Translations under genes and position numbers: made by a program
The notes under the pieces: generated by a model
What the model was told of the DNA's origin: nothing
Seen by the model: the letters and a program-made list of their open reading frames with translations, nothing else
Databases searched by the model: none
Shown here: positions 3,312-23,193 of the stretch, in pieces
Layout: every line of letters begins with the position of its first letter
How positions within the stretch are numbered: the first letter of the stretch is position 1
DNA from: Ornithinimicrobium cerasi
Lineage (GTDB): Bacteria; Actinomycetota; Actinomycetes; Actinomycetales; Dermatophilaceae
Direction of reading: 5' to 3'
Assembly: GCF_003702705.1 (NCBI RefSeq)
Contig: NZ_QZMN01000005.1
Coordinates: 1-64,000, forward strand
Length of the DNA: 64,000 nt

Positions 3312-4010
3312 ATGGTGGTTCCAGGATCACCCGCCGAGGCCCTCGGCGCCAACGCACCCGGCGTCCGTGACGAGCTCGTCGAGGTTGTGCGGTCGGTGCA
3401 CGGTCGGTTCGCCGAGGCGCACTTGGTGTCGAGGTCTCGCTACGGAATGGGATTCGGGAGTCAGTGGCGCGATCTACTAGACGAAGCCCACGACGCGCTG
3501 ACGAAGCACGGCTTCCAATCGCACACGCTGAGCCCCGGTGGGCACAAGGTCGCGGTGGTCCACGGTTGCTTGATCTACGTTTGGCGCGTCCCGGACAACC
3601 CAGATGCTGTGAGCAAGTTCGCGTCGAGTCCGACCCGCCAGTCGGGTTTCGGCGCACCGCCGCCTCCGACGATGCTGTTCCAGCCCACCTTTCCCTACGA
3701 GGCGGAGTGGAACGAGGGCGATGTGGACACAGCCGAGACCGAGGCCATGCTCGAGGCCGTCTGCAACACAATGCCAGTGGTGCTCGTCATGGTCCGATCG
3801 ACACCTCGACTGTTGCAGTCGATCGAATGGGCAGTCGCCGACCTCGATGCCGTAGGCAAGGTCCGGCTTCACGGGCATGAAATCATCTGGGAGCCGGAGC
3901 TTGTCGCGGCCGCTGCGGTGCCCGGCGTCGAGTCGTTCAGCGAAGGCAGTCCGATCGAACCCGTCGTCGAGCCCCGAAAGCAGGAGGGCACCGATCCGGA
4001 TGCGCGATGA
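3312..4010 (+). CDS. Unknown protein paired with XRE/ImmA-type regulator; possible toxin
   Basis: A 232-residue soluble protein with a strong ribosome binding site (AGGAGG at about 3304-3309) just before ATG 3312. No catalytic motif is recognised. It has a charged N-terminal half with RSVHGRFAEAHLV, a Pro-rich loop GAPPPPTMLF near residue 115, and a disordered C-terminus. Its stop overlaps the next gene by 11 bp, so the two are translationally coupled. An uncharacterised protein followed by an XRE plus ImmA/IrrE metallopeptidase is the layout of peptidase-controlled toxin-antitoxin modules such as RosmerTA. By that analogy this would be the toxin. This is an inference from layout only. Confidence 0.6.
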   Translation: MVVPGSPAEALGANAPGVRDELVEVVRSVHGRFAEAHLVSRSRYGMGFGSQWRDLLDEAHDALTKHGFQSHTLSPGGHKVAVVHGCLIYVWRVPDNPDAVSKFASSPTRQSGFGAPPPPTMLFQPTFPYEAEWNEGDVDTAETEAMLEAVCNTMPVVLVMVRSTPRLLQSIEWAVADLDAVGKVRLHGHEIIWEPELVAAAAVPGVESFSEGSPIEPVVEPRKQEGTDPDAR

Positions 4011-5121
4011 CACCCCGAGCCTGTTCGATCTGTCCGGCTCGGGGCAGACCTACGGCCGCTTCGAGCCCGCGCGTCTGACCCAAGCGCGAGTTCTGCAGTC
4101 CGTGACGAAGACGGATCTGGCCGCGAAGGTGGGCGTGTCCGCCGCAGCCATTGGGCAGTACGAGGCCGGGGTCAACTCCCCCCGCGCCGATGTACTTGAG
4201 CGCTTAGCGAAGGCACTGGACGTGAGTCCAAGATTCTTCGGCGTGGGTCGTCCGCTAGCACGCATGGACACCGTCCACGCTCACTTTCGGAGTCTTCGAT
4301 CGGCCCGCGTGAGCGATCGGCAAAAGGCGCTGGCGTCCGCGACGCTGCTGTGGGAGCTAACATTCGCGCTCGAACGCCACGTCAAGCTTCCCGAGGTAGA
4401 TCTACCCGGGATCAAGCCAGGGGGCTCTCCCTCCGAGGCTGCTGCCCTATTGCGCCTACATTGGGGTCTGCCCGACGGTCCGGTGAAGCACCTGGTCGCC
4501 TTGGCCGAGTCACACGGCATCGTCGTGGCCGTGCGCCCGCTGGCCGAGATCGACGCCGTCGATGCCTTCTCGGTCGTCATCGTCGACCGCCCGATCATCA
4601 TTACGACCCCGCGCAGGACCGAGAACGTGTTCAGGCACCGGTTCTCGATCGCCCACGAGCTCGGGCACCTGCTTCTGCACAACGACTCCGGGGAGCACAG
4701 CGCGGCCATCGAGAAGGAGGCCGACGAGTTCGCCGCCGCGTTTCTTACTCCCGCGGCAGCCATGGACGCGGCGCTGCCGCAGCGGCTCGACCTTGCCGCT
4801 CTCGACCGACTGGGCCGGACCTGGGGCGTCTCACCGCACTCACTCGTCCGCAGAATGGTCGAGCGCGGTCGCACAACAGAGTCGTCGGCACGGCGGGCCT
4901 ACCAGCGCCTATCCACAATCGCCGACCCCTTGGCCGACCCAACAAGCGCGTATCCGGGAGAGGTTCCTACGCTGCTGAAGAAGGCCGCAGAATTGGCCGG
5001 CGATCACGGTGCGCCCATTCCCGTGCTCGCCGAATCTCTGAGGATCAGCCCAGCGCAGGTCCGCTTCCTACTCGGCGTTGCTGACGAGCGCCCCGTGCTC
5101 CGCCTCGTCCGCAGCAAGTGA
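4000..5121 (+). CDS. XRE-family regulator with ImmA/IrrE metallopeptidase domain
   Basis: A 373-residue protein. A helix-turn-helix spans about residues 24-76 (LTQARVLQSVTKTDLAAKVG, then VSAAAIGQYEAG). It is followed by a zinc-peptidase domain with HELGH at 219-223 and a downstream EKEADEFAAAFLTP that supplies the third ligand region. The C-terminal 100 residues are helical. ImmA/IrrE peptidases cleave partner repressors or act as antitoxins. The ATG at 4000 is chosen because it follows an AGGAGGG site at 3982-3988 and begins MRDDTPSLFDL just ahead of the DNA-binding domain, giving an 11-bp overlap with the upstream gene. It probably autoregulates the pair and controls the upstream product. 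Confidence 0.85.
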   Translation: MRDDTPSLFDLSGSGQTYGRFEPARLTQARVLQSVTKTDLAAKVGVSAAAIGQYEAGVNSPRADVLERLAKALDVSPRFFGVGRPLARMDTVHAHFRSLRSARVSDRQKALASATLLWELTFALERHVKLPEVDLPGIKPGGSPSEAAALLRLHWGLPDGPVKHLVALAESHGIVVAVRPLAEIDAVDAFSVVIVDRPIIITTPRRTENVFRHRFSIAHELGHLLLHNDSGEHSAAIEKEADEFAAAFLTPAAAMDAALPQRLDLAALDRLGRTWGVSPHSLVRRMVERGRTTESSARRAYQRLSTIADPLADPTSAYPGEVPTLLKKAAELAGDHGAPIPVLAESLRISPAQVRFLLGVADERPVLRLVRSK

Positions 5122-5166: not shown

Positions 5167-5172
5167 CCTAGG
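5167..5172. repeat. IS481 target-site duplication, left copy
   Basis: CCTAGG, identical to 6280-6285 and directly abutting the inverted repeat. The CTA at 5168-5170 is the transposase stop codon TAG when read on the minus strand. Confidence 0.85.
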
Positions 5173-6157
5173 TGTACTGACCGGGGACGTTGGTCAATCG
5201 GCTGAAGGGTGGCTGGTTCCCGCAGGCTGAGTGGGGCCGGTGGTGATTGTAGGCGTGGAGCCAGGCGGGTAGGGCTGCGCGGCGATCGGTCTCGCTGGTG
5301 TAGTGCCGGGCGTAGGCCCATCCGTCGGCCAGGGTGCGGTGGAAGCGTTCGATCTTGCCGTTGGTCTGCGGGCGGTACGGGCGGGTGTGCTTGGGCGTGA
5401 TGCCGAGCTCGGCGCAGGTCTCACGCCACAGGTGCGAGCGGTAGGCGGACCCGTTATCGGACAGGACCCGCTCGACGGGGACGCCGCGCGTGCCCAACCA
5501 GGCGACCGCCCGGCGTAGGACGGCGGCCGCGGTGGCGGCGGTCTCGTCGTCGTGGACCTCGGCGTACCCGACGCGGGAGTGGTCGTCGGTGACGGTGTGG
5601 ACGAATGCGTGGCCCATCTTGGGGTTGTGGTGGGCGTTCCTGGCCTTGCCCGGGGTGCCGGCGCGGTTCTTGTCGCCCTGGGCCCGTCCGACGTAGCGCC
5701 AGCCACCGCCGTCGGGGATGTTGCCCAGCTTCTTGACGTCGACGTGGATCATCGACCCCGGGTGGGGGTGCTCGTAGCGACGCACCGGCTCCCCGGTGGC
5801 CCGGTCCACGTGGGCCAGCCGGTTCAACCGGCACCGCACCAGGATCTGGTGGGCGGTCGAGGGCGCGACCCCACAGCGCGCGGCGAGCTGGACCGGTCCC
5901 TCCCGCAGCCGCAGTCGCAGGCTCACCAGCCGCTTGGTCACCTGCGGCCGGGTCTTGGTCGGCATCGTGCGCGGCCGCGAGGAGAGGTCCTGCATCTCGC
6001 GGTCGCCGTCCCGGTACCGGTCCACCCACCGCTTCACGGTGGGCCAGGAGCACTGGAAACGAGCCGCGACCTCGCTGATCGGGTAGCCGTCCTCGACGAC
6101 AAGCCGGGCGACCTTGAGACGGTGCCGCGGAGTCAGCGCTGCATTAGCGTGGGACAT
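5168..6157 (-). CDS. IS481-family transposase
   Basis: A 329-residue DDE transposase. The N-terminal helix-turn-helix contains YPISEVAARFQCSWPTVKRW (about residues 25-44). The integrase core shows its acidic residues in HVDVKKL, SDNGSAYR and NGKIERFHRT. The C-terminus WLHAYNHHRPHSA is typical of IS481. The ATG at 6157 (MSHANAALTPRHRLKVARL) is chosen over an upstream one at 6202 because the family starts shortly before this segment. The last threonine codon and the TAG stop use bases of the flanking CCTAGG duplication, so the reading frame is completed by the target DNA. No frameshift is seen. Confidence 0.92.
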   Translation of the reverse strand: MSHANAALTPRHRLKVARLVVEDGYPISEVAARFQCSWPTVKRWVDRYRDGDREMQDLSSRPRTMPTKTRPQVTKRLVSLRLRLREGPVQLAARCGVAPSTAHQILVRCRLNRLAHVDRATGEPVRRYEHPHPGSMIHVDVKKLGNIPDGGGWRYVGRAQGDKNRAGTPGKARNAHHNPKMGHAFVHTVTDDHSRVGYAEVHDDETAATAAAVLRRAVAWLGTRGVPVERVLSDNGSAYRSHLWRETCAELGITPKHTRPYRPQTNGKIERFHRTLADGWAYARHYTSETDRRAALPAWLHAYNHHRPHSACGNQPPFSRLTNVPGQYT

Positions 6158-6279
6158 CGGGAGGACCTTTCTGGTGAGTGAACCTTCAGCAGTTCCACTC
6201 AACCGCGGGAAGGTCCTCCCTTCACGTCAGCTCAGACCGTGTCGTCACACCGACTCGACCAACCTGTCCGGTCAGTACA
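5173..6279. mobile_element. Complete IS481-family insertion sequence
   Basis: The element is 1107 bp. Its ends are inverted repeats beginning TGTACTGACCGG: the left end from 5173 and the right end reading inward from 6279, matching over about 23 bp with three mismatches. Both ends are flanked by the 6-bp sequence CCTAGG, at 5167-5172 and 6280-6285. CTAG-centred targets with short duplications are typical of IS481. A single transposase gene occupies most of the element on the minus strand. Intact ends, intact gene and identical duplications suggest recent insertion. Confidence 0.92.
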
Positions 6280-6427: not shown

Positions 6428-6651
6428 TTCATTCACGGCAGGATCGGGCCCGGTCAGGCTCGGTCTCAGGTGACCGGGGCGGTCGTGTTCTTTCTGGCTG
6501 CCCACGCCCCTGGCGTAAGGCTCACAATTGGCTTGCCTCGTCCCGGTCACCCCCAGGCCTGCGAGAGCCTCAAGAGGGGTATGCCCAGCCGTACGTAGAG
6601 ATGACCTCCCAGCTCGACACACCGTTGTTGGCGCGAGCAAGGGAGCACAGC

Positions 6652-6840
6652 ATGGACGAGCGGTCACCGCGGCTCGCGATCGGGATGAACCCGCACAAGC
6701 GCAGCGTCACGATCGAGGGATGACCGCCGGTGAGGTGATCGTGGGCAGCAGGCCCTCGACGACTGCGAGGGGCACAACCGCATGCTGGCCTACGCCAGGT
6801 CGTGGCCGCAGCGGGTCTAGGCGGTCGAGGGCTACGCCGG
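6652..6840 (+). pseudogene. IS110-family transposase remnant (N-terminal part only)
   Basis: From ATG 6652 the frame reads MDERSPRLAIGMNPHKRSVT, the N-terminal catalytic-region signature of IS110 transposases (usually IGVDPHK.SVTIEV). The frame is then lost around 6720. Adjacent frames continue the family pattern: MTAGEVIVG, then RMLAYARSWPQRV, a stop at about 6818, and AVEGYA. The rest of the roughly 400-residue protein, including the C-terminal serine-containing domain, is absent. It is a dead fragment of an old insertion. Confidence 0.7.
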
Positions 6841-6992
6841 ACGCGACGAAGCGGCCAGTGGTCGTGACGGGTTTGGGCCCACGGTGTCCATCACTGCCGG
6901 TAGACCATGTCCTGCTCCTGGGAAGCTTATCGCCTGCGGTTAGTGTGGCTCACGTACGCTCGCCAATCACGCACTTCTGACGGAGGGTCGCA

Positions 6993-8015
6993 ATGTCGCG
7001 ATATGGACTGAGAGTTTTCGAGTTGAGCATGGTAAAGAATGCCCGCGGTAGGGACATGCTCAATTTCGCAAACCCCTTGGGGTCGGATCCAGAGAAATCG
7101 GCGGGGTCATACATCCTCGACGCAGCCACGCAACTAGTTGGAGAGCGTCTCGCCGGACTGCCCAACACCGGCTCTCCGGCAGTTTGGGAACGGCCTGACC
7201 TGCAAAACCTTGATAGCACCACTCTTTACAGCCAGATGCGAATCAATAAGGTTGAATCGAACACTGACGATAGGAAGGTGTCCATAGTTCTCGATTACGG
7301 CTTCATTGGGGAATTTCCGAGAGCGGTCGGCGATTCGGAAATTGACCTAAAGGGCAGTGCTCCGTCGGGTCGTTTTCGTGCCCTACTCCTCATGCCGGCG
7401 GACGGAACGAAGGCTCGCGCGGTGGTCGAAACCCATGGAACGCGCTGCCCAGTAAACATTCTAATGAAATGGTTGTCGTGGACTATGTATGAGGAGGCGA
7501 CCGCCCCCTCCAAGCCGAACGACTGGATCAACTTGAAGGCCTACCAGCTCGGAGACGCCCAGCGTTTGAGTGAGCTGATCTCAAAGGCCGACAAGGTGGA
7601 GATAGAATTGACTGAGCACCACCCCACCAAGCCGGGTGCCCGGGTTCCCGTGTTGCGAAAGATGACCCAGAACGTGACTACGAACGCTGTTAAGACCCGC
7701 CTGGGAAAGATGGCCTCGAAGTTCCTGGAAGACAATTATGACAGACAGGGGTACGTCGCGAAGCTGACCAAAATCGCCGGGCTGGACGTGGACCAACTTG
7801 CCGATGCTGGCGCACACTTCGACGCCGGCGGTATCCGGGTGACAGAGAAAAACGGCGATTCTCGACTTCTAACGCCGGATAATGCGCGCGACGTGTTTAC
7901 TTACGACAGAACGGATTTGCAGCGCAGCGATGAGGACTGGCTGAAGACAGCGCTGAACCGGCTCAAGGGCCATCTGTCGGAGGGGACTGATATCTTCGAC
8001 GGTCTCACGGACTAG
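6993..8015 (+). CDS. Unknown 340-residue soluble protein, first gene of a low-GC operon
   Basis: The ATG at 6993 follows a GGAGGG ribosome binding site. No signal peptide or membrane segment is seen and no domain is recognised. Visible features are an N-terminal segment YGLRVFELSMVKNARGRDML, a central hydrophobic strand FRALLLMPADGT followed by AVVETHGTRCPV, and a charged helical C-terminal third. Base composition is unlike the chromosome: line 7021-7080 is 31 of 60 G+C, against 48 of 60 in line 23041-23100 upstream of gyrA. The next gene, a membrane protein, begins 22 bp downstream. A soluble protein plus small membrane protein, horizontally acquired beside insertion sequences, is a layout often seen in anti-phage modules. 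That role is an inference. Confidence 0.7.
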   Translation: MSRYGLRVFELSMVKNARGRDMLNFANPLGSDPEKSAGSYILDAATQLVGERLAGLPNTGSPAVWERPDLQNLDSTTLYSQMRINKVESNTDDRKVSIVLDYGFIGEFPRAVGDSEIDLKGSAPSGRFRALLLMPADGTKARAVVETHGTRCPVNILMKWLSWTMYEEATAPSKPNDWINLKAYQLGDAQRLSELISKADKVEIELTEHHPTKPGARVPVLRKMTQNVTTNAVKTRLGKMASKFLEDNYDRQGYVAKLTKIAGLDVDQLADAGAHFDAGGIRVTEKNGDSRLLTPDNARDVFTYDRTDLQRSDEDWLKTALNRLKGHLSEGTDIFDGLTD

Positions 8016-8037
8016 AGTTAGGTAGGAGGCTCGCGCG

Positions 8038-8595
8038 ATGCTCCCCATCACAACGTTTCGGGCGCACATTGACGCGCTTCGAAACCAGCGAACCGGTTCG
8101 GGTGGGCGTCCCACTTGGACTGCGGTGGCGCTTTACTTAGTGCCTTTCGCAGCGGGCGTTTGGTCCTACGTCGCGACTTGGAACCTGTCGTCTTCGGTGG
8201 CCAACCTAATCGGTGGGTTCGCTCTGATTGCCGGCGTGCTAATGGCAGTATTTTCTCTTCTCGCTGGCTGGCGTCGAGAGTTGGAGAACCGAGCATCGAA
8301 GCGCCCTTCGTCGGAATCGTGGGCCCGGCGTGAGGTTCATGCGGCGGTTGCCCACACACTGGTTGGAGTTTGGGCGTCCGTAGTGGCGGCCATCATGGTG
8401 ATTCTCCTGGGTGCGTTGCCTGCTGAATCGTCGGTCGAGCAACTGGTCAACGCCGGAGTCGCGGGTCTGGGGGTCTATATTGCCCTGCTGATAATGGTGA
8501 TCGTTAACGCCCTACACGCGGGCTATGAGGCTTCCATTGATCTCGATTTGCTTGAGCGCGACAAGCAGGAGCGGGACCAGAGAAGCGAGGTCTAG
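8038..8595 (+). CDS. Four-helix membrane protein, second gene of the unknown operon
   Basis: A 185-residue protein with AGGAGG about 10 bases before ATG 8038. Four hydrophobic segments are visible, at about residues 25-45, 52-73, 102-125 and 138-159. They form two hairpins separated by a basic, soluble loop of about 28 residues (WRRELENRASKRPSS). The C-terminus is highly charged (LDLLERDKQERDQRSEV), probably cytoplasmic. No family is recognised. Co-transcription with the 340-residue protein is implied by the 22-bp gap. Small multi-helix proteins in such pairs often act as membrane effectors, for example KwaA of Kiwa is a four-helix protein, but I see no sequence relation. Confidence 0.7.
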   Translation: MLPITTFRAHIDALRNQRTGSGGRPTWTAVALYLVPFAAGVWSYVATWNLSSSVANLIGGFALIAGVLMAVFSLLAGWRRELENRASKRPSSESWARREVHAAVAHTLVGVWASVVAAIMVILLGALPAESSVEQLVNAGVAGLGVYIALLIMVIVNALHAGYEASIDLDLLERDKQERDQRSEV

Positions 8596-8598
8596 ATA

Positions 8599-8910
8599 GT
8601 GGTGAAGGGGTGGGCCACCGGTGTGGTTGAGTTCGGCTCTGAGTTTCCACCAAAAACCGTGTGGCGGTCCGAGTGTCTCGCTCACGGCTGGGACCTTGGC
8701 GGGAACAGCGGCACGTCCATCTTTCCACCTCCCCTAGAGCTCCGTCAGCGCTGCGCAGGTAGTACCGTCGCCAAAGCGAGGGTGGACCTCTTCGACATCA
8801 TTTGCTCCGGTGCAGGGGACGAAGATGTTGACCTTCGTTCGGTGTGTCACTCTATAGGCATTCTGGGGCCGCCTAATCGCACGCGGGTGCGCCCGACTAT
8901 TGTGGCTTGA
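8599..8910 (+). CDS. Possible third small gene of the unknown operon
   Basis: A 103-residue frame beginning at GTG 8599, three bases after the stop of the membrane protein gene, with GAGG about 9 bases upstream. It contains segments such as VDLFDIICSGAGDEDVDLRSV and several cysteines, and has no membrane helix. Codon use is mixed, with no decisive third-position bias. Its tight spacing argues for a real gene; its length and lack of recognisable domain argue against. A start at GTG 8602 is equally possible. Confidence 0.35.
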   Translation: MVKGWATGVVEFGSEFPPKTVWRSECLAHGWDLGGNSGTSIFPPPLELRQRCAGSTVAKARVDLFDIICSGAGDEDVDLRSVCHSIGILGPPNRTRVRPTIVA

Positions 8911-8983
8911 TATCCCTGCCGCCATGAAGGTGTGCGTAGCCACTAGCCACAGAAGGCAACGCCTGGGCATCGAGGCCTATCCC

Positions 8984-9001
8984 GACGTCTGTACAGACGT
9001 C
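8984..9001. promoter_or_regulatory. Perfect 18-bp palindrome
   Basis: GACGTCTGTACAGACGTC is fully self-complementary. It lies in the 160-bp gap between the unknown operon and the end of the relaxase gene. It may be an operator or the stem of a terminator; no T-tract follows. Confidence 0.5.
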
Positions 9002-9070
9002 CGGTCATCGGCGGTACAGCAATGTATCGACCACGGCGGTGCTTAGGGGACGCCGTCCGCTGCGGATCGG

Positions 9071-12000
9071 TCATCGGGTGGGGCCCGGAACCTCGCGCGA
9101 AGGACCCTCGAAAGTGTGATGTTCTGCGCGTCGCTGGCTGGCTCGGAGGCGCTCACCCGCAGCATTTGGCGTGGGCCTGCGGACAACCGGAGATGGCGCG
9201 GTCAGTCGCCGGGCCAGCCTGGCTTGGTGCCTCGCTGCTTCGGGCTCTTTCATGGGCGGCCCGGTGGGGTCGGCGTCGGTGGGTGGGATGCCATGGGCGG
9301 CTCGCCAGACCGCGAGGTCGCCGATCAGGCGGTCGTGAGCGTGCCGCGGTAGTGCGCGCCGCCAGGAGACGCGGTCGGGCGCTGCTGACTGCTGCGCCTC
9401 GCCGGCAACCCGTTGCTTGAGATCTTCGACGCGCTCGGTCAGGCGGTCAAGGTAGTCACGCACATCTGGTGCCTCTCGAAGCGCCAGCGGGACGTCGGGG
9501 AGCCAGGGCAGGGGGGCGTTCCGGTGAGATGGTGGGGTGGTGCCGCTGACGCGCCAGGAGAGGGCGGCGGCAGGGTCGTCGGCCTCGAGCAGGCTCTGCC
9601 TGCCGCGGTACCAGGTGGCCTCCTCGATCACGGCCAGAGGTGCGGTTCCGTCGACCCAGCGCAGCGCGAGCTGGCCGCGCAGGTGCGGGTAGGCCGGCTG
9701 CTCTATGAGACCCGGTAGCCACCGCTCGAGCGCGTCGTCCAGGTCCGCCATGCGCTCGCGTCCGAGGTGCTGCTGGGCCAGGACCGGTAGCGCGTCCTGG
9801 TAGGCCAGCACCGCTTGGCGCAGCAGCTGAGCCGCGTCGCCGCTCTCGACGGTCGTGGCGGACAGCGCACGGCCGTCCCGGGCGAGGATGTCGGTGAGCA
9901 CCTGCCGCGGCTCCATCGCCGTGTCCTGCACCTCGGGCCCGACACCGTCCAGCGAGGCGGGAGGCGTGGCGAGGTAGAGGTGGTTGGTCTGGCGGCCGCG
10001 GGAGAGCGCTACGTACAGCGCCTGACGGGTCTCCGTGCCGGTCAGGACGGTGTGGGAGGTGTCGACGGTCGCGCCCTGGGCTCCGTGGATGGTGCTGGCA
10101 TACCCCAGCTGGACGTGCTCGGCCACGTACCCGGCCGGCAGGGTGACGTGAGCCGGCCTGCTGACACGCCCGACACGGTGGCGCTCGACCAGGACGGCGC
10201 CGTGAGGATGGACTTCGACGACGTGCCATCGGTCGCCGTTCTTGACCCAGGAGCCGTCCCGGTCGCGCAGGGTTCGGTCGTTGCGGCGGGTGATGATCGT
10301 GTCCCCGGCACTGGCGCGGGTGCCGTCGCCCAGCGTCACCTCACGTCCGGGCGGTTGTCCGGTGCTGTCGAGGCGGTCCTGCCGGGCGCGCTGGTTCAGC
10401 TCACAGACGGTGTCCCGGGTCGCGGCCAGCAGCAGGCTGGACAGCCCGACCTGCTGGTCCGCATTCCAGGCGGCGTACGCCGCCTCGACCACCTCCCCGG
10501 TGTCACCGGCGTGGACCCGGCCGTGGTCGTGGTAGTGGTCCAGGACGGCGGGGTCGCCGTCGCGGATCGCAAGGGTGGCCGCGCCTTCGGCCGGGTCGGT
10601 GAACCGGTGCAGCTCGGTGAGGGTGACGGTGGAGCCGTGCGCGTGCCCCTGCTCGGCCAAGTCTCGAAAGATCCCGCCGGCCGCGACGGCGGCCAGCTGC
10701 TGGTCGTCCCCGACCAGCCGGACACTGCCTCCGACGTCGACGACCTGCCGGACCACGGCCACCAGGTCGCGGGTGCCGGCCATCCCGGCCTCGTCGATCA
10801 GCACCAACGTCCCCGGCCCCACACCGTGGATTGCGTCACCTCCGTGGTCGGCGGCCGAGTGGCCAGCTGTGCTGGTCTGGTGGAGGTACTTAGCGAGGGT
10901 GTCGGCGCCGATGCCTGTGGCGCTTCCCAGCTCCTCGGCCGCGACCGCGGTCGGGGCCAGACCCAGGACCGTGCCGCCGGAGGCCTCCCAGGCCCGGGCC
11001 AGCACGCGCAGCGCAGCGGTCTTGCCCGCCCCTGCCGGGGCGAGGGCGACCTGCACCCGGCACCCGCTCATGGCAAGGGTGCGGACCATCGTCGCTTGCG
11101 ACCGATCCAGGCTCGGCCCATCTCCACTCTGGGCAGCCAGGACGTCCTCCACGAGGACCAGGTTGGCCTGTCGGCCGTCGCGCCGGAGGCCCAGCGCGAG
11201 CAGCTCCTCCTCGGCGGCCAGGATCGCCTTCGAGGTGTAGGCCTGGCCGCCGTGCACCGTGTGCGCAGACTGCCCGTCCGGGCGGCGCAGCACCTCAGGT
11301 TCGCCCAACTGCGGCGGTACTCCGACCGGCACCGAGAACCCCTGCAGGACCCAACGCTCGACCTCCCGCCCGTGCTCCTCGAGCCGCGCCAGCGGCACCT
11401 GCGCGGTCCGGAGCTGGCGTAGCGCCTCGGCACGCACATGCCACACCTGCCACGTCGCCCGCGACCCCTCCAACACCTTCACGACACGCGCGGCGACCAC
11501 CTGGGGACGCACGTCCCCACCCCGCCGCTGCCGGAGGTGTCCCGGCAGCGTCCCCACCCGATGACCTGCAGAGATACCCGTCTCTGGGCCGCGTCCCCGG
11601 TTGCGTCCCCACCCCGCCCCCACCGCCGATGCGACCATCTCCTCCGGGCTGCGTCCGTCGTGGGCTAGCACGGTGGTGGCCTGCGCGCGCCAGGTCTGGC
11701 GTTGGTCGGCCTCGGAGCGGGGTTCGTGCTTGTCCGGTCGCGTCTCCAGGTTCGCCTGCTGCGCCAGCGCCAACGACTCAATCGTGGTCGGTGCCCGGCT
11801 GTGGTCGGCACGGAAGGCCGAGGCGAGCTCGCGCTGCCGGGCCTCGATCACCTGCCGCCGCGATGACCAGGCACTGAGCAGGGCCGGGGTGACACCGTCG
11901 ATCTCCCGCACCGGACGCTTGCCCTCCATCCCCGGGCGGTCGACGAACCTGACCCCGAGGCGGTCCACGAGCCCGGCCTCCAGGTGGGTGTTGTAGTGCT

Positions 12001-12874
12001 CGGAGGCCATCACCTTGGCCTTGAACAGCATCCGCCCGTCCAACGTCAACCACCGCCCGCCCTCCTCCGGCAGGGACTGCACCTTGTTCGAGACTACGAC
12101 GTGGGTGTGCAGATCCGGGTCCCCGGTGCGCGAGTCGCGGTGGTCGAACGCCGCCGCCACCAACCCCACCACGGGGACCTGACGGATCCCGCCCTTGCCC
12201 ACCCTCGTGAACGCGACCTCACGCTCCAGCAGCGCCAGCGTGGCGCGGACCGCGTCCTGGTGCGCGGCCTCCACCTGCTGGGCGACGTCGGTCGGGGCCA
12301 GGGCCCACAGGGCCGAGACCGACTTCACCGGCGAGAACGTCAGGTCGAACCCGGCCACCGGCACCTGCGCCGGCCGCGACGCCTTCGCCACGAACCTCGT
12401 CAGCTCGGCCTCGTCCACGGGTGCCCGGCCGTGCCGCTGCTCGAACGCCTCCCGGGCGACCTGCGTCCTGATTGCAGCCCGCTCCTCCGCCGGGATGGAG
12501 GCGTTCCACGCCAGCCCGCGGCTGGTGTTGTGCTCGCTGAACGCCCGCGCCGTCACCTGCCGCAGCGTCGTGGCGTCGAACGTCGGAAACGCCCGGCCCA
12601 GCTGGCCCCACCTGCGCGCGGCGGCCTCGGGTTCGTCGGAGCGGGGGTGGCGGCCCTGCCCGAACAGCAGCTTCATCTGCTCCTCGGTCACCACGTCACC
12701 CTCGGTCAGATCCAACCCGGCCAGGCCGGTGCCCAGCCAGCGACCCGGCGTCTCACCCTTCTCCTCGTAGTAGGAGGCGAGGCCGACCTGCCGCTTCTCG
12801 GTGGCGTCGTGGGCCGCGACCTGCTTCGTCAGGTACTTGTACCCGCTGCCCGCGGCGAGCTTGTGCAACGTCAT
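9071..12874 (-). CDS. MobF-family relaxase/helicase (TraA-like)
   Basis: A 1267-residue conjugative relaxase. The N-terminal TrwC-type domain begins MTLHKLAAGSGYKYLTKQ, with candidate catalytic tyrosines at about 12-14 and in LASYYEEKG. The metal-binding histidine triad follows in FDHRDSRTGDPDLHTHVVV at about 243-261. A RecD-like helicase follows, with Walker A APAGAGKTAAL near 615 and Walker B VLIDEAGMAGT near 690. It nicks and unwinds DNA at an origin of transfer during mobilisation. The start at 12874 matches the family N-terminus; an in-frame extension to 12949 is rejected. It lies next to excisionase and integrase genes, transcribed divergently. No other transfer genes are in the window. 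Confidence 0.92.
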   Translation of the reverse strand: MTLHKLAAGSGYKYLTKQVAAHDATEKRQVGLASYYEEKGETPGRWLGTGLAGLDLTEGDVVTEEQMKLLFGQGRHPRSDEPEAAARRWGQLGRAFPTFDATTLRQVTARAFSEHNTSRGLAWNASIPAEERAAIRTQVAREAFEQRHGRAPVDEAELTRFVAKASRPAQVPVAGFDLTFSPVKSVSALWALAPTDVAQQVEAAHQDAVRATLALLEREVAFTRVGKGGIRQVPVVGLVAAAFDHRDSRTGDPDLHTHVVVSNKVQSLPEEGGRWLTLDGRMLFKAKVMASEHYNTHLEAGLVDRLGVRFVDRPGMEGKRPVREIDGVTPALLSAWSSRRQVIEARQRELASAFRADHSRAPTTIESLALAQQANLETRPDKHEPRSEADQRQTWRAQATTVLAHDGRSPEEMVASAVGAGWGRNRGRGPETGISAGHRVGTLPGHLRQRRGGDVRPQVVAARVVKVLEGSRATWQVWHVRAEALRQLRTAQVPLARLEEHGREVERWVLQGFSVPVGVPPQLGEPEVLRRPDGQSAHTVHGGQAYTSKAILAAEEELLALGLRRDGRQANLVLVEDVLAAQSGDGPSLDRSQATMVRTLAMSGCRVQVALAPAGAGKTAALRVLARAWEASGGTVLGLAPTAVAAEELGSATGIGADTLAKYLHQTSTAGHSAADHGGDAIHGVGPGTLVLIDEAGMAGTRDLVAVVRQVVDVGGSVRLVGDDQQLAAVAAGGIFRDLAEQGHAHGSTVTLTELHRFTDPAEGAATLAIRDGDPAVLDHYHDHGRVHAGDTGEVVEAAYAAWNADQQVGLSSLLLAATRDTVCELNQRARQDRLDSTGQPPGREVTLGDGTRASAGDTIITRRNDRTLRDRDGSWVKNGDRWHVVEVHPHGAVLVERHRVGRVSRPAHVTLPAGYVAEHVQLGYASTIHGAQGATVDTSHTVLTGTETRQALYVALSRGRQTNHLYLATPPASLDGVGPEVQDTAMEPRQVLTDILARDGRALSATTVESGDAAQLLRQAVLAYQDALPVLAQQHLGRERMADLDDALERWLPGLIEQPAYPHLRGQLALRWVDGTAPLAVIEEATWYRGRQSLLEADDPAAALSWRVSGTTPPSHRNAPLPWLPDVPLALREAPDVRDYLDRLTERVEDLKQRVAGEAQQSAAPDRVSWRRALPRHAHDRLIGDLAVWRAAHGIPPTDADPTGPPMKEPEAARHQARLARRLTAPSPVVRRPTPNAAGERLRASQRRAEHHTFEGPSREVPGPTR

Positions 12875-13153
12875 CACGTATACCAAATGCGGCCGAGCGA
12901 GCCTCAGGGGTTCACGAGTTTCGCCGAGTGCACCAGGTGTGTCCTCCATCTGCTGCTGCTGGGTGTCGGTCGGTCGCGGACCTGCTCGGAAAAAAGTTTG
13001 AAGAAAGTGAGTCCCGGAGGGGGGTCTAGTCCGCTTATGGGGGGTAGGCAGGTTCGTCGTCCGGGTGGGTTATCCACAGGGACGGTCGAGTGCCTGTCTG
13101 GTCCGCACGGGATCTGGCCTACTGGAGGTTGGTCCCTGACGAAGGGAGTGGAC
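12875..13153. other. Divergent intergenic region of the mobile module, possible oriT
   Basis: A 279-bp gap between the divergent relaxase and excisionase genes. It holds G-runs and a short AT-rich patch (AAAAAAGTTTGAAGAAAG at about 12990-13007). It also has a DnaA-box match TTATCCACA at 13070-13078 and the ribosome binding site of the excisionase. MobF origins of transfer usually sit close to the relaxase gene, so oriT may be here, but I can identify no nic site. Confidence 0.35.
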
Positions 13154-13402
13154 ATGTCAACGATGGCAAGCGGGAGTCCGGAGCAGCGGCGCAAGGCGCC
13201 GGTCGGCCCGATCCAGCGGCGGTGGTACACCGTGGCCGAGGTCGCGGAGATGCTCGGCTACGGACCGACCAAGGTGCGGATGATGTGCATCAGCGGCGAC
13301 CTGCGCTCGCTGAAGGACGGTGGGTCGCGCCGCATCCTGCCGGCGTGGGTCGACGAGTACGTCGCCATGCGGGCCGCTGAGGCAGAGGCGGACTGGCCGT
13401 GA
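13154..13402 (+). CDS. Excisionase-like helix-turn-helix protein (MerR/HTH_17 type)
   Basis: An 82-residue protein with a winged-helix excisionase fold: WYTVAEVAEMLGYGPTKVRM at about residues 25-44, then CISGDLRSLKDGGSRRILPA. It binds DNA as a directionality factor for the integrase encoded next, with which it overlaps by 4 bp (GTGA). GAAGGGAG lies upstream of ATG 13154. Xis-Int pairs of this kind are standard in integrative elements of actinobacteria. A role as activator of relaxase transcription is also possible. Confidence 0.85.
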   Translation: MSTMASGSPEQRRKAPVGPIQRRWYTVAEVAEMLGYGPTKVRMMCISGDLRSLKDGGSRRILPAWVDEYVAMRAAEAEADWP

Positions 13403-14616
13403 GCCGGCGGGCGAACGGCGAGGGCTCGATCTACCCGTACCGGAACGGCTTCGCCGCGCACGTGTGGATCACCACCCCAGCGGGCCGGCGCCAGCGCAAG
13501 TCCGTCTACGGGAAGACCAGGGCCGAGGTCCACGAGAAGTGGCTGCGCCTGCACGAGCGGGCAAGGCGTGGCCCGGTCGTCCCGGTCTCGCCCAAGCTGC
13601 GCGACTTCCTCGAGCAGTGGCTGACGGAGACCGTTCGGCCCGGGCTCTCGCCGGCCACCGCGAGCAACTACGAGATGTTCACCCGGCTCTACATCGTCCC
13701 CGACCTGGGGGACCGCAGCCTCGAGAAGCTGGCGGTCCGCGACGTCCAGACCTGGGTCAACGAACTGAGGGTGCGCTGCCAGTGCTGCTTTCAGGGCAAG
13801 GACGCCGCCCGGCCGGAGCCGCAGTGCTGCGCGCGTGGGCAGTGCTGCCACGAGGTCGCGTCGGAGTGGACGGTCCATCAGGCGTGGCGGGTGCTCCGCG
13901 GGGCGCTGACCCAGGCGATGCGGGAGGAGCTTGTGTTCCGCAACGTGGCCGCGCTCGTACGCGTGCCCGTGCCCCGGGCGAAGCGATCAGCCGTGTGGTC
14001 GGTCGACGACGCGCGGCGCTTCCTCGAGTCCGCACGTGACGCCGGGGACGCGATGTATGCGGCCTACGTGCTGCTCCTCGTACTCGGGCTGCGGCGCGGG
14101 GAGGTGCTCGGCCTGGCGTGGGAGGACGTCGACCTGGAGCAGGGCGAGGCCTACATCGCCTGGCAGGTCCAGCGGGTCGACGGCCAGCTGCTCCGGCGGC
14201 GGACAAAGACCCCCTCCTCGGACGCGCCGCTGCCCCTGCCGGACATCGCGGTGCGGGCCCTCGAGCAGCACCGGGCCGAGGAGGAACGGCGACGGGTGGC
14301 CGCCGGCGACATGTGGGGCGACTGCGGCCTCGTCTTCACGACCCGCCTCGGCGACCCGCTCGACCCGCGCAACTTCCATACGGCGTTCAAGACCCGGGCA
14401 GGCAAGGCCGGCGTCCCGATTATCCCCGTGCACGCGACGAGGCGGACCTGCGCGAGCCTGCTCGTCGCGCTCGACGTGCACCCACGGGTGGCGATGGCGG
14501 TGCTCCGGCACAGCCGGATCTCGATGACCATGGAGGTCTACTCCCAGGTCTCGTCGCAGGCCACGCGCGAGGCACTGCGCGAGCTCGGCGGACGGCTGGG
14601 CGGCTCGGTTGGCTAG
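13399..14616 (+). CDS. Site-specific tyrosine integrase (pSAM2-like)
   Basis: A 405-residue tyrosine recombinase. The N-terminal arm-binding segment begins GEGSIYPYRNGFAAHVW and the core-binding domain spans about 65-180. Catalytic residues are Arg232 (GLRRGEV), His345 and Arg348 (HATRRTC), His371 (LRHSRISM) and Tyr381 (MEVYSQ). A cysteine-rich insertion at about residues 127-150 (RCQCCFQGK, then QCCARGQCC) is known from actinobacterial integrative element integrases and may bind metal. GTG 13399 overlaps the excisionase stop. No tRNA gene adjoins it, and no attachment-site duplication was found by eye. Confidence 0.92.
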   Translation: MSRRANGEGSIYPYRNGFAAHVWITTPAGRRQRKSVYGKTRAEVHEKWLRLHERARRGPVVPVSPKLRDFLEQWLTETVRPGLSPATASNYEMFTRLYIVPDLGDRSLEKLAVRDVQTWVNELRVRCQCCFQGKDAARPEPQCCARGQCCHEVASEWTVHQAWRVLRGALTQAMREELVFRNVAALVRVPVPRAKRSAVWSVDDARRFLESARDAGDAMYAAYVLLLVLGLRRGEVLGLAWEDVDLEQGEAYIAWQVQRVDGQLLRRRTKTPSSDAPLPLPDIAVRALEQHRAEEERRRVAAGDMWGDCGLVFTTRLGDPLDPRNFHTAFKTRAGKAGVPIIPVHATRRTCASLLVALDVHPRVAMAVLRHSRISMTMEVYSQVSSQATREALRELGGRLGGSVG

Positions 14617-14697: not shown

Positions 14698-14721
14698 AGA
14701 TGTCACAGATCTGTGACATCT
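14698..14721. promoter_or_regulatory. 24-bp palindromic operator upstream of hipB
   Basis: Bases 14698-14721 form a perfect palindrome built on ATGTCACAGA and TCTGTGACAT. It ends 20 bp before the hipB start, where a HipB dimer would repress. Two related half-site copies, ATGTCGCGGT, lie upstream at about 14648-14657 and 14674-14683. Confidence 0.75.
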
Positions 14722-14741
14722 ACGGTTGGGAGGTGGGTCGC

Positions 14742-15008
14742 ATGCTTAGGACGGTCCGAGACGTCGGTGCGGCGGTGCGCCGAGCACGCCGGGAGGCCGG
14801 GCTCACTCAGCAGGCTCTCGCGGACCGGGCGGGGGTCTCCCGCCAGTGGCTCTCCCGCGTGGAAGCGGGGAAGGGTCCCTCCGCCGAGATGGGCAAGGTG
14901 CTCGACGTCCTTGCCGCGCTCGGACTCGCGGTCGACCTGGTCACCACCCCCGTGGCCGAGGCCACGGACGATGACCCGTTTGCCGGTCTCTTCGAGGACG
15001 GCTCATGA
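14742..15008 (+). CDS. hipB: HipB-like XRE antitoxin/repressor
   Basis: An 88-residue protein with an XRE helix-turn-helix spanning about residues 10-62 (VRRARREAGLTQQALADRAG, then VSRQWLSRVEAGKG). HipB dimers bind operator palindromes and neutralise the HipA kinase. ATG 14742 is chosen because GGGAGG lies about 9 bases upstream. An in-frame ATG at 14700 falls inside the 24-bp operator palindrome. Its end overlaps hipA by 4 bp (ATGA), indicating translational coupling. The C-terminal tail (DDDPFAGLFED) is acidic. Confidence 0.88.
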   Translation: MLRTVRDVGAAVRRARREAGLTQQALADRAGVSRQWLSRVEAGKGPSAEMGKVLDVLAALGLAVDLVTTPVAEATDDDPFAGLFEDGS

Positions 15009-16300
15009 CGGCGTTCCTGAACGTCTACCTCGACGGCGTCCTTGCCGGACAGCTGGCGCAGACCCCTGGTGGGGCGTTTGCCTTTGCCTACGACAGTTCC
15101 TACACCGCCCGTGCCAACCCCACGCCGCTCTCGCTGTCGATGCCGCTGAGTGGGTCGCGGCACTCGAACCGTGTCGTCGCCGCCTGGCTCGAGGGGCTCC
15201 TCCCGGACAACCTCGCCGTGCGGGAGGAGTGGGCTCGTAGGTTTGAGGTGTCAGCGCGCAACCCGTTTGCCCTGCTTCGGCACGTCGGGCGCGATGCCGC
15301 GGGGGCCGTGCAGGTGCTTCCCGTCGACGTCGACCCACCGGATGCAGCTCGGCGCACGGGCGACGTCCGCCGGCTCACCGTAGACGAGCTCTCGGGTCTT
15401 CTTCTGCGCCTGACGGTGGGGGACCACGGCTGGGACGTCGGTGCCGGTTCCGGACGATGGAGCCTGGCGGGAGCGCAGAACAAGGTGGCGCTGCACCGCC
15501 TCGACGACGGCGGGTGGGGTGTTCCCCAGGACGCGACGCCGACGACGCACATCTTCAAGCCGACCCGCGCCGGCACCCGCTTCGAGGACCTGCACGTCAA
15601 CCAGTTCGTCTGCCTGCGTGCCGCGGGTCTGCTGGGCCTGCGCGTCGCCCGGGTGGACCTGGTCGACGTCGGCGGGGCCAAGACGCTGGTCTCCACCCGC
15701 TACGACCGCGGTCGCGGACAGGACGGGATGTGGTTGCGCCTCCATCAGGAAGACCTGCTGCAGGCCATGAGATACCCACCGACCAAGAAGTACCAGTCCG
15801 ACGGCGGCCCCAGCGTCAAGAACGTCGCCTCGCTCCTGTCGACGCTGACCCTCGCGGACCGCGATGCCGTGCGGTCGGCGTTCTTCGACGCCTTCGCCTT
15901 CAACGTCCTGGTGGGCGGGACCGACGCCCACGCGAAGAACTACTCCCTGCTCCTGCGCGGGCCACGGGTGGCCCTGGCACCCCTCTACGACGTCGCGTCC
16001 TATGCGCCGTACCTGAAGAGGGGCGAGGCGGTGCGGAGCTCGATGAAGGTGGGGCGCACCTGGCTCGTCCGCGACGTGACCGTCGAGGACTGGGCGGCGG
16101 TCGGCCTCTCCCTGGGTCTGCGCGCGACCGAAGCCGTGGATCGCGTGGAGCAGCTGCGCACGGGCCTGCCCGAGGCGGTGGTAGCAGCGGCTGAGGCCGC
16201 ACCCGCGCCCTTCGTCGAGGCCGCCCGCCGGGTCGCGACCGCCGTCGCTGCGCAGGGCCACCTCCAGGCTTCGCGTCTGCCGCGCGGACAGCTGAGTTGA
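15005..16300 (+). CDS. hipA: HipA-family serine/threonine kinase toxin
   Basis: A 431-residue protein with an N-terminal HipA_N domain (about 5-110) and a C-terminal kinase domain. Catalytic Asp307 and Asn312 lie in GGTDAHAKN, and metal-binding Asp329 lies in LYDVAS. WSLAGAQNK carries Ser153, in the position of the autophosphorylated serine of E. coli HipA. HipA toxins phosphorylate glutamyl-tRNA synthetase or other aminoacyl-tRNA synthetases and cause growth arrest. The gene is intact. It forms an operon with hipB and converges on the TetR gene. The module is probably part of the mobile region, though no boundary is visible. Confidence 0.9.
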   Translation: MTAFLNVYLDGVLAGQLAQTPGGAFAFAYDSSYTARANPTPLSLSMPLSGSRHSNRVVAAWLEGLLPDNLAVREEWARRFEVSARNPFALLRHVGRDAAGAVQVLPVDVDPPDAARRTGDVRRLTVDELSGLLLRLTVGDHGWDVGAGSGRWSLAGAQNKVALHRLDDGGWGVPQDATPTTHIFKPTRAGTRFEDLHVNQFVCLRAAGLLGLRVARVDLVDVGGAKTLVSTRYDRGRGQDGMWLRLHQEDLLQAMRYPPTKKYQSDGGPSVKNVASLLSTLTLADRDAVRSAFFDAFAFNVLVGGTDAHAKNYSLLLRGPRVALAPLYDVASYAPYLKRGEAVRSSMKVGRTWLVRDVTVEDWAAVGLSLGLRATEAVDRVEQLRTGLPEAVVAAAEAAPAPFVEAARRVATAVAAQGHLQASRLPRGQLS

Positions 16301-22500: not shown

Positions 22501-23193
22501 TCACTCGTCGGAGAGAGTCACCTGGGCGCCGCCCACGAGGGCCGCGCAGATGTTGTAGAGGAAGGCGGTCAGCGTCGCCAGCGCGGTGAGCAGGAAGACG
22601 TTGAGCACGCCCACCACCGCCGCCAGCGAGATGACCCGGCCGATGCCGAGGTAGTCCATCAGGTCGAACGACGCACCGCCGGTCTCGCCGCTGGTCACCT
22701 GGGTGAAGAAGTCGCTGACGGTCGAGAAGACGTTCATCCCGGACAGCACGGTCCACAGCACGGCGACCATGACCACCCCGGCGATGCCGAGGGCCACCGA
22801 GACCAGGAAGCTGATCTTCAGCACCGACCACGGGTCGATCCGCTGGGCCGTGAGCCGGACGCGACGAGGTCCGCCGCGGCGCGGTGCCGCCGTCCGGGGG
22901 GCACCGCTGCGTGCGGCGGACCCGCCACCCGTCCGGGCCGTCGACGCACGCCCGGCGGTGGCTCCCGCCGCGGAGCCGGACGCCAGCCCGGCGGAGGCGC
23001 CCTGGAGCGCGCGCGCCTTGCGGGCCGCGAGGTCGCGGCCCTGGGCCGTGCGGGCCAGGGCGCCGTCGCGCATCTTGGCGGCCGTCGAGCGCTCGTCCGC
23101 CGAGGGTGCGTCGGACCCTGGCCTCACGCGGGCGTGGACCTGGGTCTCGTCGCCGGAGGTCGATGCGCCGGCCTGGCTACCCGTGGTGCTCAT
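22501..23193 (-). CDS. DUF3566 transmembrane protein
   Basis: A 230-residue protein. A long Ala/Arg-rich disordered N-terminus (about 1-112) precedes the DUF3566 domain, which starts [19 protein letters not shown]. Two transmembrane segments follow, at about 128-153 and 190-218. The family sits directly after gyrA in most actinobacteria; its function is unknown. Its ATG overlaps the gyrA stop (ATGA), so it is co-translated with gyrA. Confidence 0.9.

Follow-up and report, generated by a model that had tools for sequence, protein, structure and literature searches.

A Diverged Rex-Like Gene Pair on a Probable Mobile Element of Ornithinimicrobium cerasi

Two adjacent genes of Ornithinimicrobium cerasi, ORF1 and ORF2, are very probably members of the actinobacterial family of Rex-like pairs known from the phages Toast, Butters, CarolAnn and Sbash, an assignment drawn from sequence comparison of both proteins. 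The fuller reading is that they constitute a deeply diverged member of this two-component phage exclusion family, reside on a mobile element and would act by abortive exclusion; as a whole, this is considered fairly likely. The resemblance goes beyond a shared layout, since the two proteins, searched separately, reach the same neighbouring genes in Toast and on the plasmid pCP105.

The genes lie in a stretch of 64,000 nucleotides that is referred to here as the window. An earlier note had proposed that the genes were acquired by horizontal transfer as a defence or abortive-infection module, one partner being soluble and the other in the membrane; the relatives found fit this proposal. Defence has been published for phage-borne relatives only, and for the window copy we infer it by analogy. 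The family is known already; what is added is the depth of its divergence and its non-phage settings.

The Operon

The coordinates of the features are given in Table 1. ORF1 and ORF2 are tightly spaced, with a gap of 22 bp, and ORF3 follows ORF2 after 3 bp. A simple hydropathy scan places four hydrophobic stretches in ORF2 (residues 28-46, 57-75, 108-126 and 141-159) and none of membrane length in ORF1, in agreement with the initial description of a soluble protein of 340 residues beside a membrane protein. The ribosome-binding sites, described at the outset as good, are GGAGGG 5′ of ORF1 and AGGAGG 5′ of ORF2; the description suits these two genes but not ORF3, which has a poorer site. No sigma-70-like site was found in 6700-9100.

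Table 1. Positions of the genes and loci discussed (window coordinates unless a locus is named)
Feature	Position	Strand	Remarks
HTH-Peptidase_M78 protein	3877-5121		Pfam; PADLOC RmrA models, best E 3.3e-83
DDE transposase	5168-6202	-	Pfam
ORF1, Rex-like soluble component (RexA position)	6993-8015	+	ATG, 340 aa
ORF2, Rex-like membrane component (RexB position)	8038-8595	+	ATG, 185 aa, four hydrophobic stretches
Central positively charged loop of ORF2	8263-8358	+	Residues 76-107; predicted cytoplasmic
ORF3, probably outside the module	8599-8910	+	GTG, 103 aa
TrwC/MobF relaxase	9071-12949	-	Pfam TrwC, E 3e-87
Excisionase-like HTH protein	about 13160-13399	+	Pfam HTH_17, E 1.6e-9
Tyrosine integrase	13399-14616	+	Pfam Phage_integrase, E 1.2e-16
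HTH protein and HipA, immediately following the integrase	14700-16300		Pfam HipA_C, E 2.9e-46
Rex-like pair and type I R-M locus	L026 2728-8449; L027 2794-8376		Related Microbacteriaceae loci

The 1.6 kb spanning ORF1 and ORF2 have a GC content of 57.4%, against 71.6% for the whole window. Just one of 624 sliding 1.6-kb windows is lower, and it overlaps the operon itself. The two counts behind the original remark on low GC, 31/60 at 7021-7080 and 48/60 at 23041-23100, are both exact.

The positive-inside rule serves as a basis for membrane-protein topology. As the central loop of ORF2 contains seven lysines and arginines and the two short other loops contain none, both ends of the protein and the central loop are predicted to be cytosolic. 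Within this loop, Arg79 is invariant and Val104 nearly so (alignment A8, 14 sequences).

The small third ORF had been listed as a possible further gene of the operon. This finds no support, as a search of 38 other genomes gave no relative of ORF3 and its matches in the fetched loci lie at E 0.2 or worse. It is probably not part of the module.

Relatives Found by Sequence and Profile Search

The inability of the earlier note to recognise a family is borne out: neither ORF1, ORF2 nor ORF3 has a match at E 0.001 in Pfam, NCBIfam, PADLOC or PHROGs. The weaker values are read as chance or hydrophobic matches, the best for ORF1 being PADLOC CARF_RelE (E 0.016), with phrog_22743 (E 0.0041), NCBIfam TIGR03943 (E 0.0053) and Pfam LapA_dom (E 0.008) for ORF2. 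All lie below the curated cut-offs where such exist. A profile search of solved structures gave no match, and a single-sequence structure model for comparison with the two-domain RexA/RdgC fold reached a mean pLDDT of 34 and was not usable.

Relatives are instead found among phages and plasmids. By tblastn, ORF1 matches gp42 of Gordonia phage Toast (E 8e-8, 95% of the query) in three phage records (Toast twice, PCoral7 once), as well as the plasmids pCP105 of R. opacus (E 2e-5) and pA of P. ureafaciens (E 8e-6). A separate search with ORF2 leads to Toast gp41 (E 1e-6 over 89%), again in those three phage records, and to the gene adjoining the ORF1 match on pCP105 (E 1e-2 over 88%); the partner gene on pA was not reached. 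Toast gp42 in turn matches Butters gp30 over its whole length (E 2e-22), and ORF1 gives E 3.3e-6 against Butters gp30 by pairwise blastp.

The CarolAnn and Sbash pairs are not reached by tblastn from the window proteins and are linked to them through profiles. The soluble profile scores 51.9 (probability 88%, 235 columns) against a set of CarolAnn gp44, Sbash gp30, Sejanus 46 and DumpsterDude 44, while 40 column shuffles give at most 22.5 and the reversed control 17.3. With 15 sequences, the soluble profile scores 51.1 against the CarolAnn/Sbash set, compared with at most 18.6 in 20 shuffles. The membrane profile scores 35.2 (probability 62%) against the CarolAnn gp43/Sbash gp31 set, the 40 shuffles reaching no more than 14.0 and the reversed control 18.4, and a second run gave 40.7 (83%), with a maximum of 11.9 over 20 shuffles. 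When fewer sequences and CarolAnn alone were used, the profile link was not significant (probabilities 4-6%).

The same hydropathy threshold reveals four stretches in the membrane proteins of the window, Toast, Butters, G438, pA, CarolAnn, Sbash and lambda, and three in the partners from pCP105, Sejanus and DumpsterDude. Single-protein scans of 7, 40, 3 and 16 stretches yielded no confirmed relative. The genome searches matched 1/98 relatives (with a single protein), 2/394, 1/396, 2/187 and 3/396, the window's own genome being counted each time; these rates are rough lower figures that give no single prevalence, as different profiles were used on overlapping samples and scoring was confined to the few best candidates of each genome.

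The identity of the window pair to 14 other aligned pairs is 17-25% for the soluble and 19-29% for the membrane protein. Such very low values would also suit a relative with another function, for example in stress or as a toxin-antitoxin-like pair, whose link to the exclusion pairs is common ancestry or no more than layout; phenotypes are known from phage-borne copies only. This explanation is judged very improbable, given that the searches with the two proteins converge on the same adjacent genes in phages and on a plasmid, and that members on two branches give exclusion in the available parts of the papers. Membership of the exclusion family remains the preferred reading.

Conservation of the Pair

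A failure of the two genes to occur together had been named beforehand as the finding that would count against the module. Both genes are present in 16/16 distinct loci besides the window, with the first gene broken in pA and L022. The loci are pCP105, pA, Toast, Butters, L015, L019, L022, L023, L024, L025, L026, L027, G438, G934, G1073 and G1108. Toast and PCoral7, the Butters records, L015 and L018, and L019 and L020 were each counted once; the last two share gene positions and profile scores, though their stretches are not letter-identical.

The scan with membrane alignment A6 yielded six viral-contig loci and five genome loci. The soluble gene lies directly upstream in all 11 loci reached through the membrane protein, one of these (L022) carrying it in split form. 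Searches in the opposite direction with soluble profiles led to G438, G934, G1073 and G1108, and a membrane gene adjoins in 4/4. CarolAnn, Sbash, Sejanus and DumpsterDude were reached from CarolAnn gp44 and stand outside the 16-locus count; a hydrophobic protein also adjoins the soluble gene in each of them.

The distance matrices of the soluble and membrane proteins are strongly correlated (Mantel r 0.944, reached by 0/5000 permutations, 15 pairs including the window). As judged from the sequences, this parallel divergence supports a stable pair; it is no sign of physical contact, because linked genes with a common history give the same result. Both trees group the window with G934 (local support 0.87 and 0.88). 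The deeper placement differs: the membrane tree joins them to Toast/L015 (0.78), the soluble tree to the Microbacteriaceae copies (0.82).

In the pA pair (L003 4405-5786), the soluble gene occupies two reading frames and the membrane gene is open; the first gene of L022 is likewise split.

The Mobile Element and Its Neighbourhood

The setting described in the earlier note, with a relaxase/integrase module and HipA, is confirmed by Pfam, which identifies the TrwC relaxase, the tyrosine integrase, an HTH protein and HipA. Among the listed plasmid matches of the relaxase, the best are MobF relaxases from Rhodococcus plasmids, with about 46% identity. No viral genes were noticed next to the pair in the window. 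The pair probably sits on an integrative, mobilisable element rather than in a prophage. A search of 1-20500 for attachment sites, as direct repeats of at least 20 nt, found two short families, neither of which flanks the element. The window starts at a contig end, which limits the view of the left border.

Further features lie upstream of the pair. Short broken frames at 6600-6990 resemble what we take to be the start of an IS110-type transposase, and they agree with the insertion-sequence debris noted earlier. A 38-nt unit occurs twice, head-to-tail and 95% identical, at 2611-2686. An ORF of 232 aa without a family match overlaps the HTH-Peptidase_M78 protein (window 3312-5121), and the latter also matches the NCBIfam spr1629 repressor/antitoxin below its cut-off. 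The region 3312-5121 may hold another pair of the defence or toxin-antitoxin-like kind.

Settings of the Relatives

The relatives occur in several settings. Toast, Butters, L015, L019/L020 and L022 are phages or viral contigs, and G1108 (L032) lies in a region that looks prophage-like by eye (HTH, IrrE-like, pair, integrase-like). On plasmids, the pair adjoins MobC and the relaxase of the mobilizable pCP105, and it is also carried by the conjugative pA. An IrrE-like ORF (by eye) and further unidentified ORFs are located downstream of the pair of G934 (L031 5433-8728).

In L026 and L027, the pair is located about 370 and 130 bases, respectively, upstream of hsdM, which is followed by hsdS and the start of hsdR. 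Pfam recognises HsdM and HsdS in L026, and HsdS and HsdR in L027. The hsdM of L027 is 81% identical to that of L026, and the hsdR start of L026 is 70% identical to that of L027. Since the two loci are related, the adjacency to restriction-modification (R-M) genes is, on these comparisons, one association seen twice and not two independent ones. It is possible that the Rex-like pair and the R-M genes form a joint defence locus here.

These neighbourhoods bear on a matter called unknown in the available part of the paper on Toast gp42 (PMC11077077), namely whether Rex homologues truly serve for exclusion or exclude as a by-product. The pair could control the excision, transfer or maintenance of the element that carries it, with ORF1 binding DNA, much as RexA has been proposed to tune the lambda switch, and exclusion would be a side effect. 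RexA homologues bind DNA and adjoin repressors in several phages; the repressor is reported not to be adjacent in Sbash and Butters (PMC11077077). In the window, no repressor gene, such as the CI-like repressor beside lambda RexAB, adjoins the pair, and the nearest HTH protein lies beyond the transposase gene, which is on the other strand. The scanned neighbours in L026 comprise an upstream Mg-chelatase-type protein and HsdM/HsdS, with no repressor and 0/4 phage proteins. Self-regulation is regarded as quite improbable, and exclusion is retained as the preferred function.

Proposed Mechanism

In the parts of the published accounts that are available, CarolAnn 43/44 and Sbash 30/31 are each reported to defend, with both genes required (PMC6426606, PMC7542560, PMC6426596). 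In the cited papers, likewise as far as their available text extends, Kita gp53 is described as toxic together with CarolAnn 43/44, and it has been proposed that the membrane protein is activated as an ion channel. Toast gp42 has been named a RexA homologue, is described as a dimer with non-specific DNA binding, and has been modelled (PMC11077077). The same dimeric, non-specific DNA binding is reported for CarolAnn gp44 and Sbash gp30 in the cited papers.

By analogy, ORF1 would be a dimeric DNA-binding sensor, with a trigger supplied by the invading phage in the form of a DNA intermediate or an early protein. Triggered ORF1 would act on ORF2, probably at the central loop. ORF2 would then lower the membrane potential and ATP, halting growth and aborting the infection. 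In this way the element would protect both its host and itself. The direction of this scheme, in which ORF1 senses and activates ORF2, is held with confidence slightly better than even.

Butters presents a different picture. Its gp30/gp31 pair is reported to alter phage plating, gp30 alone abolishing PurpleHaze and inhibiting Alma, and gp31 weakening the effect (PMC7542560). The antiviral effect in Butters is attributed to the soluble protein in the available text of two papers (PMC7542560, PMC12894663); together with the low identities, this counts against the preferred explanation. The alternative is that the membrane protein is a regulator that holds the soluble protein at the membrane until infection frees it, whereupon the soluble protein blocks the phage. 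In favour of this, Butters gp30 is directly related to Toast gp42, which is in turn related to ORF1. However, neither tree places the window with Butters, and CarolAnn and Sbash, of the same family, are described as requiring both genes. Such a role of the soluble protein in the window is rather unlikely, and abortive exclusion through ORF2 remains preferred.

Distribution and Detection

Bacterial relatives have been touched upon before. In the sections available, the Sbash paper mentions gp30 relatives with a small downstream membrane protein in Mycobacterium and Rhodococcus isolates, most likely as prophages, and the Butters paper lists actinobacterial genomes in which relatives of its pair keep the gene order. 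A literature search of main texts, mostly outside the subscription journals, found no account of a Rex-like pair carried by an integrative element other than a phage, by pCP105 or pA, or next to type I R-M genes. With members located on plasmids, near a relaxase and integrase, and next to such R-M genes, the question of true function becomes testable outside a prophage.

There is also a gap in detection. The Pfam RexA model (PF15969) finds lambda and misses the window's genome, Toast, Butters, CarolAnn and Sbash, and the PADLOC models miss both window proteins. According to the available part of the DefenseFinder paper, its RexAB models derive from Pfam or COG, and RexAB is reported only in Proteobacteria (PMC9090908). 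It is suggested, tentatively and with confidence below even, that Rex-like exclusion is a free-standing actinobacterial immunity module that is moved by integrative elements and plasmids, stored beside R-M genes and borrowed by phages. Such a family would have no detectable relation to lambda RexAB, be missed by the models tried and be underestimated in its spread.

Comparison with Known Systems

Kiwa consists of a four-helix membrane protein, KwaA, and a soluble partner, KwaB. The doubt expressed earlier about a Kiwa identity was justified, as no PADLOC Kiwa model (KwaA, KwaB) matches either protein up to E 10.

Lambda RexA/RexB shares the order of a soluble protein followed by a four-helix membrane protein, and by analogy the window pair may work in the same manner. 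Unlike the layout, the sequences give no profile homology above shuffled controls. After three further lambda-type pairs had been added to lambda RexA and RexB, the soluble profile scores 16.9, reached by 4/20 shuffles, and the membrane profile 11.8, reached by 10/20; none of the profiles rose above the shuffles. One-to-one blastp values (ORF1-RexA E 0.039, ORF2-RexB E 0.23, G438 membrane protein-RexB E 0.004) are not upheld by the profiles. PF15969 has no match in the window's genome (G000) up to E 10. In the available text of the cited papers, RexA-like proteins are reported to match DUF4747 weakly by HHpred; neither DUF4747 nor RexA appears among the Pfam matches up to E 1 in the 12 members of A7. 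The tie of the actinobacterial family to lambda RexAB is founded on layout and on the biochemistry and modelling published for Toast gp42 in the available part of PMC11077077, not on sequence tests.

The pairs of pCP105 and pA, annotated as hypothetical proteins, are homologous to the window pair and likewise lie beside transfer genes. They differ in that the pCP105 proteins are 19.5% and 23.1% identical to those of the window, and in that the first gene of pA is in two frames.

CarolAnn gp44/gp43 and Sbash gp30/gp31 share the layout and show profile-level homology in both proteins, but they form a separate branch and are phage-borne, and it is for them that defence requiring both genes has been published. 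Butters gp30/gp31 is a homologous pair with a reported effect on phage plating; its proteins are 17.8% and 19.5% identical to those of the window, its genes overlap and are phage-borne, and its soluble protein is the reported effector. Toast gp42/gp41, also present in PCoral7, agrees with the window pair in gene order, in sizes (337 and 200 aa), in the four stretches of the partner and in tblastn matches of both proteins, whereas identity is 20% and 26% and the Toast pair lies directly 3′ of the phage immunity repressor.
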